Positions 4,634-51,120 of a stretch of 64,000 nt of DNA are shown here, piece by piece (position 1 is the first letter of the stretch; every line of letters starts with the position of its first letter). The position numbers and the translations under genes are program-made. The notes beneath the pieces are model-generated. The model saw nothing but the letters and a program-made list of their open reading frames with translations, did no database searches and was not told where the DNA came from. This DNA comes from Bdellovibrionales bacterium (lineage in GTDB: Bacteria > Bdellovibrionota > UBA1018 > JADZFF01). The stretch covers positions 1 through 64,000 of the forward strand of contig JADZFF010000103.1 in assembly GCA_020850015.1 (NCBI GenBank), in the 5' to 3' direction.

Positions 4634-5083
4634 GGAGCGCCGGCCCAGTTCATTGAAGGTCTTGCCCGGCTCGTGTCCGTGCCGCGCGGCCGCGCCGAGA
4701 AGCCGCCGGCGCGCCCGCTCCGATTCGCGCTCGCCTCCCCAGGTCCGCGCCCGGCGCTCGAGCAGCTTCCTGAGCTCGGCCCCCTCGTCCGTGCCCAACT
4801 CCTCGTAGGCGCGCTCGATTTCGCCATCGGGCAGGGTCAGCCCCTCGCGCCGCGCAAGCAGGGCGATCGCCCTGGGGGAGTATCCCTTTCGAATCCAGCC
4901 GCGGATCCGTGCGGAAATGTAGAGGTCCTCCCTCAGCCAACCCTCGGAGGCCAGCTCTTCGGCGATTCGAAGGGCTTCGGCGCGCTCGCAGCCCCGCTTC
5001 TCCAGACCGGCCACGAGCTTCGCGCGGGAGAGATCCCGGCGCCCGAGCAGCCGAAGGGCCGTATTCTTGAAGTTCCGAGCCAT
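4589..5083 (-). CDS. recX: RecX-family regulatory protein
   Basis: MARNFKNTALRLLGRRDLSRAKLVAGLEKRGCE...ALRIAEELASEGWLREDLYISARIRGWIRKGYSPRAIALLARREGL. Confidence 0.8.
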   Translation of the reverse strand: MARNFKNTALRLLGRRDLSRAKLVAGLEKRGCERAEALRIAEELASEGWLREDLYISARIRGWIRKGYSPRAIALLARREGLTLPDGEIERAYEELGTDEGAELRKLLERRARTWGGERESERARRRLLGAAARHGHEPGKTFNELGRRSSMVKRKRDEETPGG

Positions 5084-5410
5084 CCCTCTGCTTATAGCTG
5101 ATCCTCGCCGACCGCGCGGGCTCAGAGGCAATTCCCGACCAGGCGAATCCGCTTCAAGTTCCCCGAGCTCGCGAGATCGGGCGCGTTCTCACACCAAGGC
5201 GCGTTTCGGCCCCGAGCGCCCTGCGCGGTTGACTCCCCCAGGCGATGGGTTACAAAGAGCGCGTCCGCGCCAAAAACCCCTGAGACTCCCGGGTCTTTCG
5301 CTGTTTTTTGAGCGGGCGGAATCTCCGATCGAACCCCTCCCGGGCTTCCGGCCCGAGTCTTGCGTTCGGACGGCGAGTCCATAAAACCAACATCCAAGGG
5401 GGAATTACCC

Positions 5411-7069
5411 GTGTCTGTGCTTTCCGCTCCTCGCGCCTCGATCGCGGGCCTCGTGCTGACCACTTTGCTCTTCGCAGCCTGCTCGGGCGACAAGAACACG
5501 CCCGTCTCCGAAGGCACCAAGAACCAGATTCTTCACATCGGAAACGGCACCGAGCCGGCCGACCTCGATCCCCATGTCGTCACCGGCGTCCCGGAGCACA
5601 AGCTCATCATGGCTTTCTTCGAAGGCCTCGTAATGCCGCACCCGAAGACGCTCGCCCCCGAGCCGGGCATGGCCGAGAGCTGGTCCGTCTCGCGCGATCA
5701 GAAGACCTACACCTTCAAGATCCGCAAGAACGGCAAGTGGTCCAACGGCGACTCCTACAACGCCAACGACGTTCTCTATTCCTGGAAACGCTGCCTTTCG
5801 CCGGCGCTCGGCTCCGAGTACGCCTACATGCTCTTCAGCGTGAAGAACGCCGAGCAGTACAACAAAGGCGAGCTCAAGGACTTCGCCGAGGTGGGCGTGA
5901 AGGCCCTGGACGACTACACGCTCCAGGTCACCCTCGCCAACCCGACGCCCTACTTCCTCTCCCTCCTGTCGCACTACTCCACCTGGCCCGTGCACAAGGC
6001 CACGATCGAGAAGTTCGGCAAGGTCGACGAGCGCGGCACGCCCTGGACGCGCGCCGGCAACTTGGTCGGCAACGGCCCGTTCATCCTCAAGAAGTGGGAG
6101 ATGAACAAGATCATCGTCGCCGAGCGCAACCCGAACTACTGGGACGCCGAGAAGGTGCGCCTGAAAGAGATCCACTTCTACCCCGTGGACAACCTGGCCA
6201 CCGAGGAGCGCATGTTCCGCTCGGGCCAGATCCACATCACGAGCACGGTGCCGCCGGATAAGATCGAGGTCTACGCCAAGGAAAACCCCGAGCTGATCCG
6301 CATCAACCCCTACCTGGGCACCTACTACTACCGGATCAACGTCACGAAAAAGCCCTTCGACGACGCCCGCGTCCGCCGCGCCTTCGCCATGTCCGTGGAC
6401 CGCAAGACGCTCGTGGAGAAGGTTTCCAAGGGCGGCGAGTTGCCCTCCTTCTCCTTCGTGCCGGCCGACACCGCCGGTTACACGCCCCAGCACTCGATCC
6501 CCTACGACATCGAAGGCGCGAAGAAGCTCCTCGCTGACGCGGGGTTCCCGGAAGGCAAAGGGCTGCCGAAGGCCGAGCTCCTCTACAACACCTCTGAAGG
6601 CCACCAGAAGATCGCCCAGGCCCTTCAGCAGATGTGGAAGGTGAACCTCGGCGTGGAAGTGGCTCTCGTGAACCAAGACTGGAAAGTCTACCTCGCGAGC
6701 CAAAAGGCCATGGACTACTTCATGGCCCGCGCCGGCTGGATCGGCGACTACGCCGATCCCACGACCTTTATGGACATGTTCGTCACCGGCGGCGGCAACA
6801 ACCAGACCGGCTGGTCGAACAAGGAGTACGATCGCCTGATCCGCCAGGCGGCCGAGACCGGCTCGCAGGAAGCCCGCTACGCGATCTTCCAGAAAGCCGA
6901 GAAGATCCTGCTCGAGGAAGCTCCCATCATCCCGCTCTACACCTACACGAACAAGGCGCTCATCTCGCCCGACGTGAAGGGCTGGGAAAAGAACATCCTC
7001 GACAACCACCCCTACAAGTACGTGCACCTCTCGTCGGAAGGCGAGGCGGGCACGCTCAGCAAGAAGTGA
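5411..7069 (+). CDS. oppA: Peptide ABC transporter substrate-binding lipoprotein (OppA)
   Basis: GTG start giving MSVLSAPRASIAGLVLTTLLFAAC lipobox; SBP family 5 features (PADLDPHVVTG, WSNGDSYNANDVLYSWKR, RRAFAMSVDRKTLV). Confidence 0.9.
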   Translation: MSVLSAPRASIAGLVLTTLLFAACSGDKNTPVSEGTKNQILHIGNGTEPADLDPHVVTGVPEHKLIMAFFEGLVMPHPKTLAPEPGMAESWSVSRDQKTYTFKIRKNGKWSNGDSYNANDVLYSWKRCLSPALGSEYAYMLFSVKNAEQYNKGELKDFAEVGVKALDDYTLQVTLANPTPYFLSLLSHYSTWPVHKATIEKFGKVDERGTPWTRAGNLVGNGPFILKKWEMNKIIVAERNPNYWDAEKVRLKEIHFYPVDNLATEERMFRSGQIHITSTVPPDKIEVYAKENPELIRINPYLGTYYYRINVTKKPFDDARVRRAFAMSVDRKTLVEKVSKGGELPSFSFVPADTAGYTPQHSIPYDIEGAKKLLADAGFPEGKGLPKAELLYNTSEGHQKIAQALQQMWKVNLGVEVALVNQDWKVYLASQKAMDYFMARAGWIGDYADPTTFMDMFVTGGGNNQTGWSNKEYDRLIRQAAETGSQEARYAIFQKAEKILLEEAPIIPLYTYTNKALISPDVKGWEKNILDNHPYKYVHLSSEGEAGTLSKK

Positions 7070-16358: not shown

Positions 16359-18575
16359 ATGCGCAACTCCGCCTCTGCCCGGCTGCTGTCCTGGATCCTC
16401 ATTTCCGCGTTGACCCTGCCCGCCTTCTCCGGCGCGGCGCAGGCGGATCCCACGCAACCCAATCCCGAGCGCGCGCGGCGCGAGGGCGTATCAGACGGTC
16501 AGCCCGACGGCGGACGCGAGGGCCGCGAGCGCGGGCGCCACGAGGGCGAGCGCGAAGGACGCGTGGAAGGCTATCGCAACGGCTTCGCCCGCTGCGAGCG
16601 CGAAGAGCGCGAGCGCCACTACCAGCAGGGTTATCGCGACGGATTCAGCTACGGCGAGCAGGAAGGCTTCAACTACGGGTTGGGTCAGGGTGAGGCGGAG
16701 GGATCCGAGCGCGGGCGCCGTGAGGGCACGGCCGACGGGCGCGCGCGTGCCGATCGCGACGCACGGGCCGAGGCCGAACCGCTGGGCGCCGCCCAAGGGA
16801 TCGCGCAGGCCAACGCATCGGATGCAGGCGCTCAGGGGCAGTCCCAGGGCGCCGCGGCCGGCGAAGAAGAAGCCCGCCAGACCGCGCTTCGCGTGGATTA
16901 CCCGCGGGGACGCAAGGATTACCGCGACGAGCGTTTCGCGGAAGCCGTCGCTCACGAGGACGCCTTCTCCCAGCGCCCCACCACCGAGCGCGACACTGAG
17001 ACCGAGACGATCACCGAGACCGCGACGGAGACGGAGACCGACTCCGCCCGCGCCGTCCCCGATTTCCGCTACAACAACCCCCGCCGCACCTACCCTCACG
17101 CCTCCGAGAACCAGGCCTATCACCAGGGCTATCGCGACGGGTACATCCAGGGCTTCAACGGCAGCTATCGCTCCACCTACAACCAGCACTACCAGATGGC
17201 CTACCGCCCGGCCGAGGACCAAGGCTGCTGGGAAGCCAGGCGCCAGAACTACCGCCCCGAGTACGACCGCGGCTTTGCCCAGGGCCGTTCCGAGGGATAC
17301 CGCCGCGGCTTCGACCGCGGCTACCAGCAGGCCTTCCAGAACGCCTACGCCCGCGAGTTCGGGCCGGCCTCCGAAAACACCTACCGCGCCGAGTACCCGG
17401 GCTTCTACCAGCGGCACTTCGAGGCCGCCCGCGCCCGCGCCTACTCCGAGCGCTACCGCGAGCTCTTCGACGCCGCCTTCCAGGTAGCCAAGCGCGAGCG
17501 CTTCGAAGCGCGCTATCCCGTGCTCGCCCGCGAGCAGTACGCGCGCGGCCGGGCTGACGAGGCCGAAGACTTCCGCCTGAAACCCGCCCGCCTCTTGGGC
17601 GCCGAGATCAGCGAGACCTGGGTGAACGGCGTGCTCGAGCCCGAGGAGACGCTTCGGGTGAAGCTGAACCTGCGCAACTTCGCGGCCTCGGGGCTCGACG
17701 CCCGCGACGTTCGCGTGAGCGTGAGGGCGCTCGATGCCGGCGTGACCGCGATCCCGGTCGCCGATGAGGCTCTGGTTCGGGGGCTGCGCGCGAAGAGCGT
17801 CACCGCCGTCTCTGACGCGCTCGATGTGCGCCTCCTCGGCGCCGCCGTGGGCCGGCCCGTGCGACTGGCCGTCCGCGTGACCTACCAGGGCCGCGACGGG
17901 GGCGAGGTCACCCTCACGCTGAACGCGCGCTGGGCGTTGCAGCTCCAACTCGACGCCGACCCGCAGTTCAGCGAGGGCATACCGACGCCGGTGCGGCTGC
18001 GCACGACGAACGTGTCGAGCGAGCCGATCCCAGCCGGCGTGGCCCTGAACTTCCGCTCGCGGCCCGAGATCCTGGAGGTCACTCAGGGCTCGGCGGGGCT
18101 GCCCGCGCTCGCGCCGGGTGAGTCGCGCGTGGTGGAGTTCACCGCCATTGCCCGCAAGGCGGGCGCGGCGGTCGCGATCCCCATGCTCTTCGAGGGCCTG
18201 GCCGCGGGCCGACGCTGGGGTTACCTCGACCTCACGCGCGAGCTGCCCGTCGTGAACGACTACTCGATCCGCCTGGCCACCGACGTGGCGAAGCTCAAGA
18301 CCCAGGGCGTGACCCGCGTGGAGTACGTGATCCGCAACGAGAGCGCGCGCCTGGGGTTCCAGGGCCTGCAGCTTCACACGCGGGTCTTGGGGAGTTCGGG
18401 CTCGGAAATCCAGGTCATCGGGCCGAACCCGCAGCTGCTCGCGCCGCTCGTGCCGGGCCAGGCCGTGAGTTTCCTCGTTCCGGTGCTCGCGCTTCGCGAC
18501 GGGCTCTCGGGCACGCTCGAGCTTGAAGTACAGGAAAACGGTCGCACCGTCGTCGTGCACCGGAAGGAGTTCTAA
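16359..18575 (+). CDS. Secreted period-4 Gly/Tyr repeat protein with C-terminal beta-sandwich-like region
   Basis: Signal peptide MRNSASARLLSWILISALTLPAFSGAAQA; xxxG repeats (DGGREGRERGRHEGEREGRVEGYRNGF, QGYRDGFSYGEQEGFNYG) and second block (YHQGYRDGYIQGF, YRRGFDRGYQQAFQNAYAREF). Confidence 0.8.
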   Translation: MRNSASARLLSWILISALTLPAFSGAAQADPTQPNPERARREGVSDGQPDGGREGRERGRHEGEREGRVEGYRNGFARCEREERERHYQQGYRDGFSYGEQEGFNYGLGQGEAEGSERGRREGTADGRARADRDARAEAEPLGAAQGIAQANASDAGAQGQSQGAAAGEEEARQTALRVDYPRGRKDYRDERFAEAVAHEDAFSQRPTTERDTETETITETATETETDSARAVPDFRYNNPRRTYPHASENQAYHQGYRDGYIQGFNGSYRSTYNQHYQMAYRPAEDQGCWEARRQNYRPEYDRGFAQGRSEGYRRGFDRGYQQAFQNAYAREFGPASENTYRAEYPGFYQRHFEAARARAYSERYRELFDAAFQVAKRERFEARYPVLAREQYARGRADEAEDFRLKPARLLGAEISETWVNGVLEPEETLRVKLNLRNFAASGLDARDVRVSVRALDAGVTAIPVADEALVRGLRAKSVTAVSDALDVRLLGAAVGRPVRLAVRVTYQGRDGGEVTLTLNARWALQLQLDADPQFSEGIPTPVRLRTTNVSSEPIPAGVALNFRSRPEILEVTQGSAGLPALAPGESRVVEFTAIARKAGAAVAIPMLFEGLAAGRRWGYLDLTRELPVVNDYSIRLATDVAKLKTQGVTRVEYVIRNESARLGFQGLQLHTRVLGSSGSEIQVIGPNPQLLAPLVPGQAVSFLVPVLALRDGLSGTLELEVQENGRTVVVHRKEF

Positions 18576-49198: not shown

Positions 49199-49238
49199 GA
49201 GAAAGGCCCACCCAGGGAAACCGGGGTGGGCCTTTCTC
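49199..49238. terminator. Hairpin terminator
   Basis: Perfect 15-bp arms GAGAAAGGCCCACCC / GGGTGGGCCTTTCTC, 10-nt loop. Confidence 0.8.
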
Positions 49239-49246
49239 ATTTCGGC

Positions 49247-49302
49247 ACCCGGCAACGGGCAACCGTTACCCGCACCGGTACCCCGTACCAGTACCTGTTG
49301 CC
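49247..49302. repeat. 56-bp quasi-palindromic repeat, copy 1
   Basis: acccggcaacgggcaaccgttacccgcaccggtaccccgtaccagtacctgttgcc; 51/56 identical to copy 2. Confidence 0.9.
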
Positions 49303-49327
49303 TGGCTGCCAGGGTGCCCGTCCCAGT

Positions 49328-49627
49328 TCACGGGCGGCAGAGTTTGTAGAGGTGCGCTCCAAGCTTGTCAGCGGTAACTACCGCCGTTCCGAGTGCCTCA
49401 GGTTCCAGCGCAATCACGGATTGGACCTCCCGGCACGAGGCTAAGGCGATGGAGTAGAATCTGAGTCTATCCTTGGCCGACGCCTTCGCCGAGCCTTCCC
49501 CAAGATTGAGGCAAATGCTCGATGCCGCCCTTAGGAGCTGATCCTTGAGGTGATGCGGCAGGCGCACCTGCCTGCACTCTCGGTAGAAAACCAGGGCCAA
49601 GTCATACGTCCGGAAACCACGAATCAT
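49328..49627 (-). CDS. Four-helix-bundle protein (23S rRNA IVP/S23 family), copy A
   Basis: MIRGFRTYDLALVFYRECRQVRLPHHLKDQLLRAASSICLNLGEGSAKASAKDRLRFYSIALASCREVQS; SD AAGGAGG. Confidence 0.9.
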   Translation of the reverse strand: MIRGFRTYDLALVFYRECRQVRLPHHLKDQLLRAASSICLNLGEGSAKASAKDRLRFYSIALASCREVQSVIALEPEALGTAVVTADKLGAHLYKLCRP

Positions 49628-49633
49628 AGAAAC

Positions 49634-49711
49634 CTCCTTGGGTTGGTTTTGAAAAACTCACGGGTCCTGCCCTGGCGAGACCCGTGAGTTTTTCAAAACC
49701 AACCCAAGGAG
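49634..49711. repeat. Perfect inverted repeat, 33-bp arms, 12-nt loop, between divergent four-helix-bundle genes
   Basis: Left 49634-49666 ctccttgggttggttttgaaaaactcacgggtc; right 49679-49711 gacccgtgagtttttcaaaaccaacccaaggag; each outer end carries AAGGAG. Confidence 0.95.
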
Positions 49712-49719
49712 AGCGCTCA

Positions 49720-50112
49720 ATGATCAAAGGTTTCCGGACGTATGACTTGGCCCTGGAGCTTTACCGTGGCTGCGAAAAGGTATCCGCGCCGCATCACCTC
49801 AAGGATCAGCTCCTGAGGGCTTCACTCAGCGTGGTGCTCAACACTGCGGAAGGATCGGCGAAACCGACGGCCAAGGAACGGAGGCGCATGTACTCCATCG
49901 CCTTGGCGTCGTGCCGGGAGACCCAGGCCCTGATTCAGATCCTGAACAGGAAGGAACTCTGGGAAGTGGCCCACCGCACGGGCGGGTGCCTGTACCGGTT
50001 GGTGCATGGACGCGCTCTATCACTCGGACTCGCCGATGGTGGGAGTGCGGTTTTAAGGGAGCTACCAGACGATTCCGGCCCCGAGGATAAACCCCGACAC
50101 CACGACTGCTGA
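49720..50112 (+). CDS. Four-helix-bundle protein (23S rRNA IVP/S23 family), copy B
   Basis: MIKGFRTYDLALELYRGCEKVSAPHHLKDQLLRASLSVVLNTAEGSAKPTAKERRRMYSIALASCRETQALIQ; C-terminal extension relative to copy A. Confidence 0.9.
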   Translation: MIKGFRTYDLALELYRGCEKVSAPHHLKDQLLRASLSVVLNTAEGSAKPTAKERRRMYSIALASCRETQALIQILNRKELWEVAHRTGGCLYRLVHGRALSLGLADGGSAVLRELPDDSGPEDKPRHHDC

Positions 50113-50643
50113 GCCCCCCTTCACCTGGTACCTGACGTGAAGGTAGAAACGATGTGGGCTCTCTGGTCGACCAAAGAGGTACTGCAGGGAAAGGTCGCCT
50201 CCGGCCGCAAACTTACCCAATTCAACGTCGTCGTCAGAGTTGTAGGCGTGAATCCCAATCCCCACGCCCGCGCCTACGATCCAGGCCGGCGAGAGCGCCA
50301 CGCGAGCGAAGGGGCCAATGATCTGCTGCATGAAGGAGTCGCCCGTCGGAACTTCGCCCTTGCGCCACGCATCGAATCCCACGTCGACACGCACGCCCAA
50401 CGTCCAGTGTCGGCCAGGCATCGTCCAGTGCACAGCAAGCGTGGACGCCCCACTCAATTGCGAATGCCCGCTCTCGCTCGGCGCTACGAAGGCCCCTGAA
50501 TGACTCCGCGACCCGAACCCGAGCTGGTAGTCGAAGTAGTAGTCCTCCGGGAATGTCTCCGCTTGTGCAGGCCGCGTGAACGCGGTCGCCAGGAGCAGCA
50601 CTGAAACCGCTGTGTGAAAGGTCCATCGAGTCAGCCAAGTCAT
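50062..50643 (-). CDS. Predicted outer-membrane beta-barrel protein
   Basis: Signal peptide ...VSVLLLATAFTRPAQA, beta-strand pattern, C-terminal W. Confidence 0.65.
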   Translation of the reverse strand: MTWLTRWTFHTAVSVLLLATAFTRPAQAETFPEDYYFDYQLGFGSRSHSGAFVAPSESGHSQLSGASTLAVHWTMPGRHWTLGVRVDVGFDAWRKGEVPTGDSFMQQIIGPFARVALSPAWIVGAGVGIGIHAYNSDDDVELGKFAAGGDLSLQYLFGRPESPHRFYLHVRYQVKGGSAVVVSGFILGAGIVW

Positions 50644-50732
50644 CTAGCTATGCTCACAGGTCATGGGTGATGCGGTCAACGACCTCGTCCATTAGAGACC
50701 AGCCCAACTAACGCGGCCCACCCAAAAACAGA

Positions 50733-50788
50733 ACCCGGCAACGGGCAACCGTTACCCGAACCGGTAACCCGTATCGGTACCCGTTGCC
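50733..50788. repeat. 56-bp quasi-palindromic repeat, copy 2
   Basis: acccggcaacgggcaaccgttacccgaaccggtaacccgtatcggtacccgttgcc; direct orientation to copy 1. Confidence 0.9.
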
Positions 50789-50847
50789 GGAGTGCCCGAT
50801 TGCCGGTCCCCGTTCACCGCCCCGCTCCCCAGTGTTATGCTCCGCCC

Positions 50848-51120
50848 ATGACCACCCCCACCGCCCCCCGCCCCGCCGCCCCCTGGATCCTCACCTTGAT
50901 CTTCGCCATCCTGGGCGGCCTGCTCTCGAGCTACTCCGCCCCGAAGGCCATCGCCTGGTACTTCGAGCCTCCCACCGAGATCGGCATCAACTGCCGCCCC
51001 GCCACCGAGTGGGCCATGGAGAAGCTCGTGTACGCGCAGGCGGGCGGAATCCTCCTGGGTGGGATCATCGGGCTCGCCCTCGTGATGATGATCCGGAGCA
51101 GGCGCCGGGCAGCCGCATGA
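50848..51120 (+). CDS. Small two-TM membrane protein
   Basis: MTTPTAPRPAAPWILTLIFAILGGLLSSYSAPKA...; ATGA overlap with murF. Confidence 0.65.
   Translation: MTTPTAPRPAAPWILTLIFAILGGLLSSYSAPKAIAWYFEPPTEIGINCRPATEWAMEKLVYAQAGGILLGGIIGLALVMMIRSRRRAAA

Follow-up and report, generated by a model that had tools for sequence, protein, structure and literature searches.

Proteins of the IVP/S23 family were discovered decades ago in inserts of 23S rRNA genes, and we know of no account of their role or of how the 23S inserts spread. The 23S rRNA intervening sequence (IVS) of Coxiella burnetii, which encodes an IVP/S23p protein and has been described as a selfish element, carries GACAGAT heptamers, and hence CAG at 7-nt intervals, immediately upstream of the S23p open reading frame (PMC4990558). 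A Xanthomonas IVP relative is a homopentamer (PMC4990558), and the structure entries of two solved relatives, 2GSC and 2RLD, each contain five chains. Avd, the accessory protein of DGRs, is a homologous four-helix-bundle protein (PMC10053308). Heptanucleotide repeats are described in cyanobacteria (STRRs), in Xanthomonas and Nostoc as quadruplex repeats (PMC4692102), and in Beggiatoaceae as TAACTGA repeats (PMC4679880); PMC4692102 reports no general association of heptamer repeats with mobile elements, and IVP genes are not mentioned in either of these two accounts. The 23S rRNA IVP is also listed among CRISPR-associated domains (PMC10910872). No description of IVP cassettes with array ends was found in the open-access literature.

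The window analyzed here is a 64,000-nt stretch of a Bdellovibrionales genome, a fragmented MAG (G000; 200 contigs, 88% complete). Between a dsbA-like gene and murF, and not inside a 23S rRNA gene, the window carries a unit that spans positions 49243 to 50832. The initial annotation had proposed two divergent IVP-type genes at this position, and both are members of PF05635/TIGR02436: gene A (49328 to 49627, minus strand; 99 aa, a four-helix bundle; Pfam, 3.4e-14; TIGR02436, 7.7e-16) and gene B (49720 to 50112, plus strand; 130 aa; Pfam, 3.7e-14). The perfect palindrome reported between them is present as a central hairpin (49634 to 49711) with 33-bp arms (49634-49666 and 49679-49711) and a 12-nt loop. 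Exact shared runs of 28 nt (49730-49757/49588-49615) and 27 nt (49788-49814/49525-49551), as had been described, are directly readable in both genes and sit in a 161-nt inverted repeat of 75% identity. The left boundary is the host terminator of the dsbA-like gene (49199 to 49238; inverted repeat 49199-49216/49221-49238), followed by an array of 15 units with C-N-G every 6 to 7 nt (49243 to 49340), and a second CNG array of 16 units (50729 to 50832) forms the right end.

Inside the arrays lies an orphan gene encoding an outer-membrane-protein-like product (50062 to 50643, minus strand; 193 aa), which has no match in Pfam, NCBIfam, or PHROG and no homologue in 55 relatives; it is probably cargo, in agreement with the earlier suggestion of an OMP cargo gene. 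The IVP domain of gene B is followed by a tail of ~34 aa that runs into this gene. An 88% identical DNA copy of gene B is found elsewhere in the genome (G000:C42; dN/dS of 0.07 between the two), and the last ~34 residues lie beyond the point where the copies diverge, which marks the junction with the cargo. The unit itself encodes no nuclease, integrase, or polymerase. A small membrane protein gene (50848 to 51120, plus strand) occupies the interval between the unit and murF and was not detected beside dsbA/murF in relatives. The unit thus shares its protein family with the 23S IVS, in which the gene lies between complementary ends, but it differs in being located between protein genes and, in Bdellovibrionota generally, in having two genes, a central hairpin, outer degenerate arrays, and optional cargo. 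Both the relationship to Avd and the IVS and the "inside-out" likeness to the 23S IVS drawn in the initial annotation fit this anatomy.

At eight loci from as many genomes of the order (L263, L270, L271, L275, and L277-L280), the arrangement is kdsD - dsbA-like - murF with ~100 bp from dsbA to murF, and therefore empty sites exist. In the two relatives whose sequence was read directly, a terminator hairpin comes after dsbA, with murF immediately behind it; in the window, the left array begins right after the dsbA terminator, and the unit stops at the right array. By this comparison, the unit between dsbA and murF is an insertion. The mobility proposed at the outset, for which a search for an empty site had been suggested as a check, is thus borne out by empty orthologous sites in relatives, together with related units elsewhere in the host genome. 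The block found between dsbA and murF is probably an inserted small mobile (selfish) cassette, organized as [CNG array]-IVP A(-)-hairpin-IVP B(+)-cargo-[CNG array].

Beyond what had been noted from the window alone, the architecture recurs phylum-wide, and a one-gene version occurs in cyanobacteria; the overall comparison covered about 130 related loci. The host genome has four IVP loci, of which three carry head-to-head pairs (C104, the window unit; C61; and C174) and one (C42) a single B gene with arrays around it. The C61 and C174 pairs have perfect 30-bp palindromes of unrelated sequence. The C174 unit apparently has an extra gene between the IVP pair and the outer array (L008, 6073-6722). 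IVP genes are carried by 19 of 56 genomes in the order and by 68 of 236 genomes in the phylum sample, with up to 18 matches in a single genome. A genome-wide scan yielded 80 loci, whose named records are of Bdellovibrionota type (Oligoflexia, Bacteriovoracia, Bdellovibrionales, and similar). A search for units of the window type on phages or plasmids returned only one weak viral contig and no plasmid or phage match. The architecture therefore recurs with unrelated hairpins, is present in copies at several sites per genome, and has empty sites. These observations bear on whether the locus is an ordinary chromosomal regulatory pair, i.e., duplicated IVP genes sharing a divergent promoter palindrome next to functionless repeats. 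The genes are indeed conserved and under selection, and both SD sites lie in the palindrome, but such a pair is contradicted by the empty sites, and the several copies at unrelated loci in one genome, the patchy distribution in the phylum, and the recurrent arrays make it extremely improbable.

Other arrangements of IVP genes were also observed. Convergent (tail-to-tail) pairs occur at L143, L149, G172:C36, and G172:C42. In two different families of the order, IVP units directly follow a hypoxanthine phosphoribosyltransferase-like gene (L028, ~5000-5600, and L086), reflecting either a shared site or vertical inheritance. A tRNA gene lies a few hundred nucleotides from single full-length IVP genes of another subtype in Bdellovibrionota at 6 of the 20 loci searched (L201-L203 and L206-L208), which represents either conserved synteny or a tRNA-linked site.

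As RNA, the window hairpin has a folding energy of -66.1 kcal/mol (z = -11.4), and its outer arm ends hold the ribosome-binding sites of both IVP genes (CTCCT/AGGAG). Among 37 distinct divergent IVP pairs across Bdellovibrionota, 33 reach a hairpin score of at least 18, whereas none of 3,099 random segments taken from these loci does. The arms of these 33 hairpins measure 18 to 68 bp (median, 25), 25 of the stems have no single mismatch, and SD-like motifs are present in both outer arms in 25 of them. The arm sequences vary from element to element and are completely different between elements of one genome. Two copies in another genome (G005) differ by one change that is present on both arms; pairing is therefore kept up, either through selection or through hairpin-templated correction. 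Of the 80 loci, 20 have a contig end within 230 nt on the 5' side of an IVP gene, and only 2 have one within 230 nt on the 3' side. This bias is consistent with failed assembly across the hairpin, so that many genes recorded as "single" may represent one half of a pair. Comparison with known RNAs gave only subthreshold matches reflecting the perfect stem. A general bidirectional terminator would fit the window hairpin, but in the other elements the stem is not consistently followed by a U-run, and this interpretation was rejected.

A recent inverted duplication inside each element was rejected as the origin of part of the pairs, as A-type genes and B-type genes of different elements group together. 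In the protein tree, gene A of the window groups with the A-type genes of other pairs (A-group support, 81/76), in an alignment of 98 columns only that leaves the A/B split unresolved for several pairs. Gene conversion near the pair center is likely.

The direct repeats of 56 bp that had been reported at the borders are each contained in one of the two end arrays. Their direct orientation is real, but the repeats are longer than described (85 nt at 85% identity; 49247-49331 and 50733-50817), and they are not supported as a specific recombination pair, because degenerate CNG arrays of this kind occur at about 120 IVP loci. The two border stretches are the highest-scoring CNG arrays of the 64 kb, at 27.6 bits (left) and 28.3 bits (right), whereas a shuffled window reaches 18 bits 0.55 times per window. 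Their direct orientation was counted against the cassette model, although they are self-complementary; the end arrays are only partly complementary. A further candidate at 16996-17046 proved to be coding sequence. A 738-aa open reading frame with many RGYxxG/YRDG-type repeats and a signal-peptide-like start occupies 16359-18575.

Across Bdellovibrionota, motif density falls from 11.5 per kb over the 75 nt that follow the IVP stop codon to ~1.2 per kb farther out, and the 3' flanks of IVP genes show autocorrelation at lags 6 and 7. Unsupervised EM on 128 of these 3' flanks recovered the unit [A/C]-C(0.98)-N(0.25/0.27/0.20/0.28)-G(0.95)-W-W, with an extra base 40% of the time, and an enumeration of two-base patterns ranked CNG first at period 6 (53 flanks versus 4.6 expected) and at period 7 (46 versus 5.2 expected). 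The commonest array length is 10 or 12 units. Strong arrays number 132 in the 615 kb covered; 123 of them are no farther than 300 nt from an IVP gene, and the other 9 are more distant, the loci having been found via IVP genes and the flanks beyond 300 nt serving as the control. Several of these nine look like the outer end of a unit on the far side of a cargo gene, the arrangement seen in the window and at C174 (L008), and the one at L134 resembles the distal end of a solitary-gene unit.

The array pattern, in which C and G are fixed and N is free, recalls a DGR-like retroelement, in which the IVP protein, a homolog of Avd (PMC10053308), would act with a reverse transcriptase and the arrays would result from adenine mutagenesis of a (CAGAAA)n-type template. 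The base spectra differ between positions (position 3 is uniform, positions 5 and 6 are A/T, and position 1 is A/C), unlike the product of a single mutagenic process. The host genome also differs from DGR carriers in having no reverse transcriptase: the RT domain (RVT_1) had 0 matches in G000 (88% complete) and none in nine other IVP-bearing genomes; incompleteness of the MAGs makes any one of these absences less certain, but not all of them taken together. A retroelement of this type is therefore very unlikely.

Relatives of the solved IVP 2GSC are found as single genes on cyanobacterial plasmids, often within operons, at sites that include cas10-cmr3, cas6-cas4 (two cases), and the interval between two ribonucleotide-reductase genes. 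Cassettes L227, L229, and L230 thus lie inside type III-B (cas10-cmr3) and type I-D (cas6-cas4) CRISPR operons, which may explain the listing of IVP in PMC10910872. An array with a period of 6 to 8 nt (mostly 7 nt) is present on at least one side of 71% of the 17 cyanobacterial IVP genes (null, 2.5%) and on both sides of 35% (null, 0.14%). For 8 of the 17 genes, the flanks are inverted complements of at least 13 nt (null, 0.4%). The null rates were drawn from two plasmids only. A CNG motif common to cyanobacteria was not supported, the heptamers there being pyrimidine-rich and not CNG-specific; this difference and the lack of arrays at some of the cyanobacterial IVP genes were counted against the model. 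These arrays are short intergenic 7-nt tandem arrays like the heptanucleotide repeats introduced above (the cyanobacterial STRRs and those of Xanthomonas, Nostoc, and Beggiatoaceae), but they are paired, inverted, and bound a gene cassette.

Empty alleles were found in relatives for four cyanobacterial IVP loci. In the clearest case, Nostoc pNsp_a, the empty allele reads AGGTTCTAGGTTATGCAA and the filled one AGGTTCTA-[CAGAAGT array - IVP - ACTTCTG array]-TTCTAGTTATGCAA. The insertion separates the stop codon of one gene from the start codon of the following one; 5 bp (TTCTA) are duplicated, and at the right edge a single base is changed or lost. The 5-bp target site duplication (TSD) is that of the L240 cassette, which ends at its arrays. 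These alleles show that, in cyanobacteria, a one-gene version bounded by inverted heptamer arrays is inserted between genes of operons. In the predicted transcript fold of a Nostoc one-gene cassette (L226), the arrays pair into a long terminal stem whose loop contains the gene (z = -6.4), an anatomy nearer to that of the 23S IVS. An array-bounded insert without an IVP gene (L245, Nostoc pNsp_c) occupies the same site as the L226 cassette and is likely a nonautonomous derivative or a remnant.

Like MITEs and REP/RAYT systems, the Bdellovibrionota units are small, multicopy, and hairpin containing and lack a transposase of their own; they differ in encoding conserved, selected proteins, in having a hairpin sequence specific to each element, in having arrays as ends, and in not requiring Y1. 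In 13 within-genome comparisons of IVP copies, dN/dS was 0 to 0.18; recent copies are under strong purifying selection, so the IVP proteins matter to whatever keeps the units. The two G005 copies (957 bp, 97.7% identity) have identical ends at unrelated sites. Their outer ends are inverted and TIR-like (GGCTCTCCCTC/GAGGGAGATTCC), imperfect duplications of ~8 bp (TSDs) lie outside the arrays, and a third copy has the same left end. These features, MITE-like in combining TIRs with TSDs, suggest that the units might be passengers moved in trans by an ordinary IS transposase acting on ends outside the arrays, and the G005 lineage may have had help from a foreign transposase. As a general explanation this is rather unlikely: in other genomes the flanks showed no common TIR, and the recurrent ends are the arrays; L240 ends at its arrays with a 5-bp duplication; and the purifying selection on IVP is unexpected for pure passengers, a MITE having no functional protein of its own.

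A second possibility is a REP/RAYT-like system, in which a Y1 (TnpA-REP) transposase would act on the hairpins. Y1 enzymes usually have hairpins as substrates, and Y1 genes are common in the order, with four in the host genome; one genome (G002) has an unusually large number, 21 Y1_Tnp (RAYT-like) genes. On the other side, no Y1 gene was found in five IVP-bearing genomes, two of which have 6 to 8 IVP matches, absences that MAG incompleteness weakens singly but not as a set, and the hairpins of one genome are unrelated in their arms, unlike REP families, in which one conserved palindrome occurs genome-wide. We consider such a system highly improbable. Neither reverse transcriptase nor Y1 transposase is consistently present, and co-occurrence supports neither as a requirement.

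To our knowledge, nothing described so far explains how a paired-IVP cassette of this kind moves. For the mobile cassette favored here, the IVP proteins would form pentameric rings like their solved relatives, probably with A and B mixed. By analogy with TRAP, which wraps RNA on spaced triplets, our leading inference is that these pentamers recognize the periodic arrays and/or the hairpin of their own cassette. The rings would pair the two ends of the cassette, and cutting and copying to a new intergenic site would fall to replication or repair enzymes of the host. With the ribosome-binding sites of both genes inside the hairpin, the IVP genes would not be translatable from read-through transcripts, and sequestration of the SD sites would thus limit both activity and host cost. 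In transcripts, inverted arrays could pair to form a stem that encloses the gene, like that of the 23S rRNA IVS, so insertion into operons would be tolerated.

We tentatively suggest, as a possibility short of probable, that IVP/S23 proteins are the founding factors of widespread mobile cassettes without a known transposase, whose rings read the short-period arrays that form the cassette ends (CNG every 6 to 7 nt in Bdellovibrionota and heptamers in cyanobacteria); the 23S IVSs would be those cassettes that had inserted into rRNA genes, and at least part of the unexplained bacterial heptamer repeats (STRRs) would be cassette ends or their remains. The comparison provides a general anatomy for IVP elements in two bacterial phyla, together with natural pairs of empty and filled sites, and a candidate recognition code that can be tested at the bench (i.e., CNG every 6 to 7 nt plus a hairpin over both start regions). 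It would explain the presence of IVP genes within CRISPR and other operons and would give some cyanobacterial heptamer repeats, long without explanation, a role.
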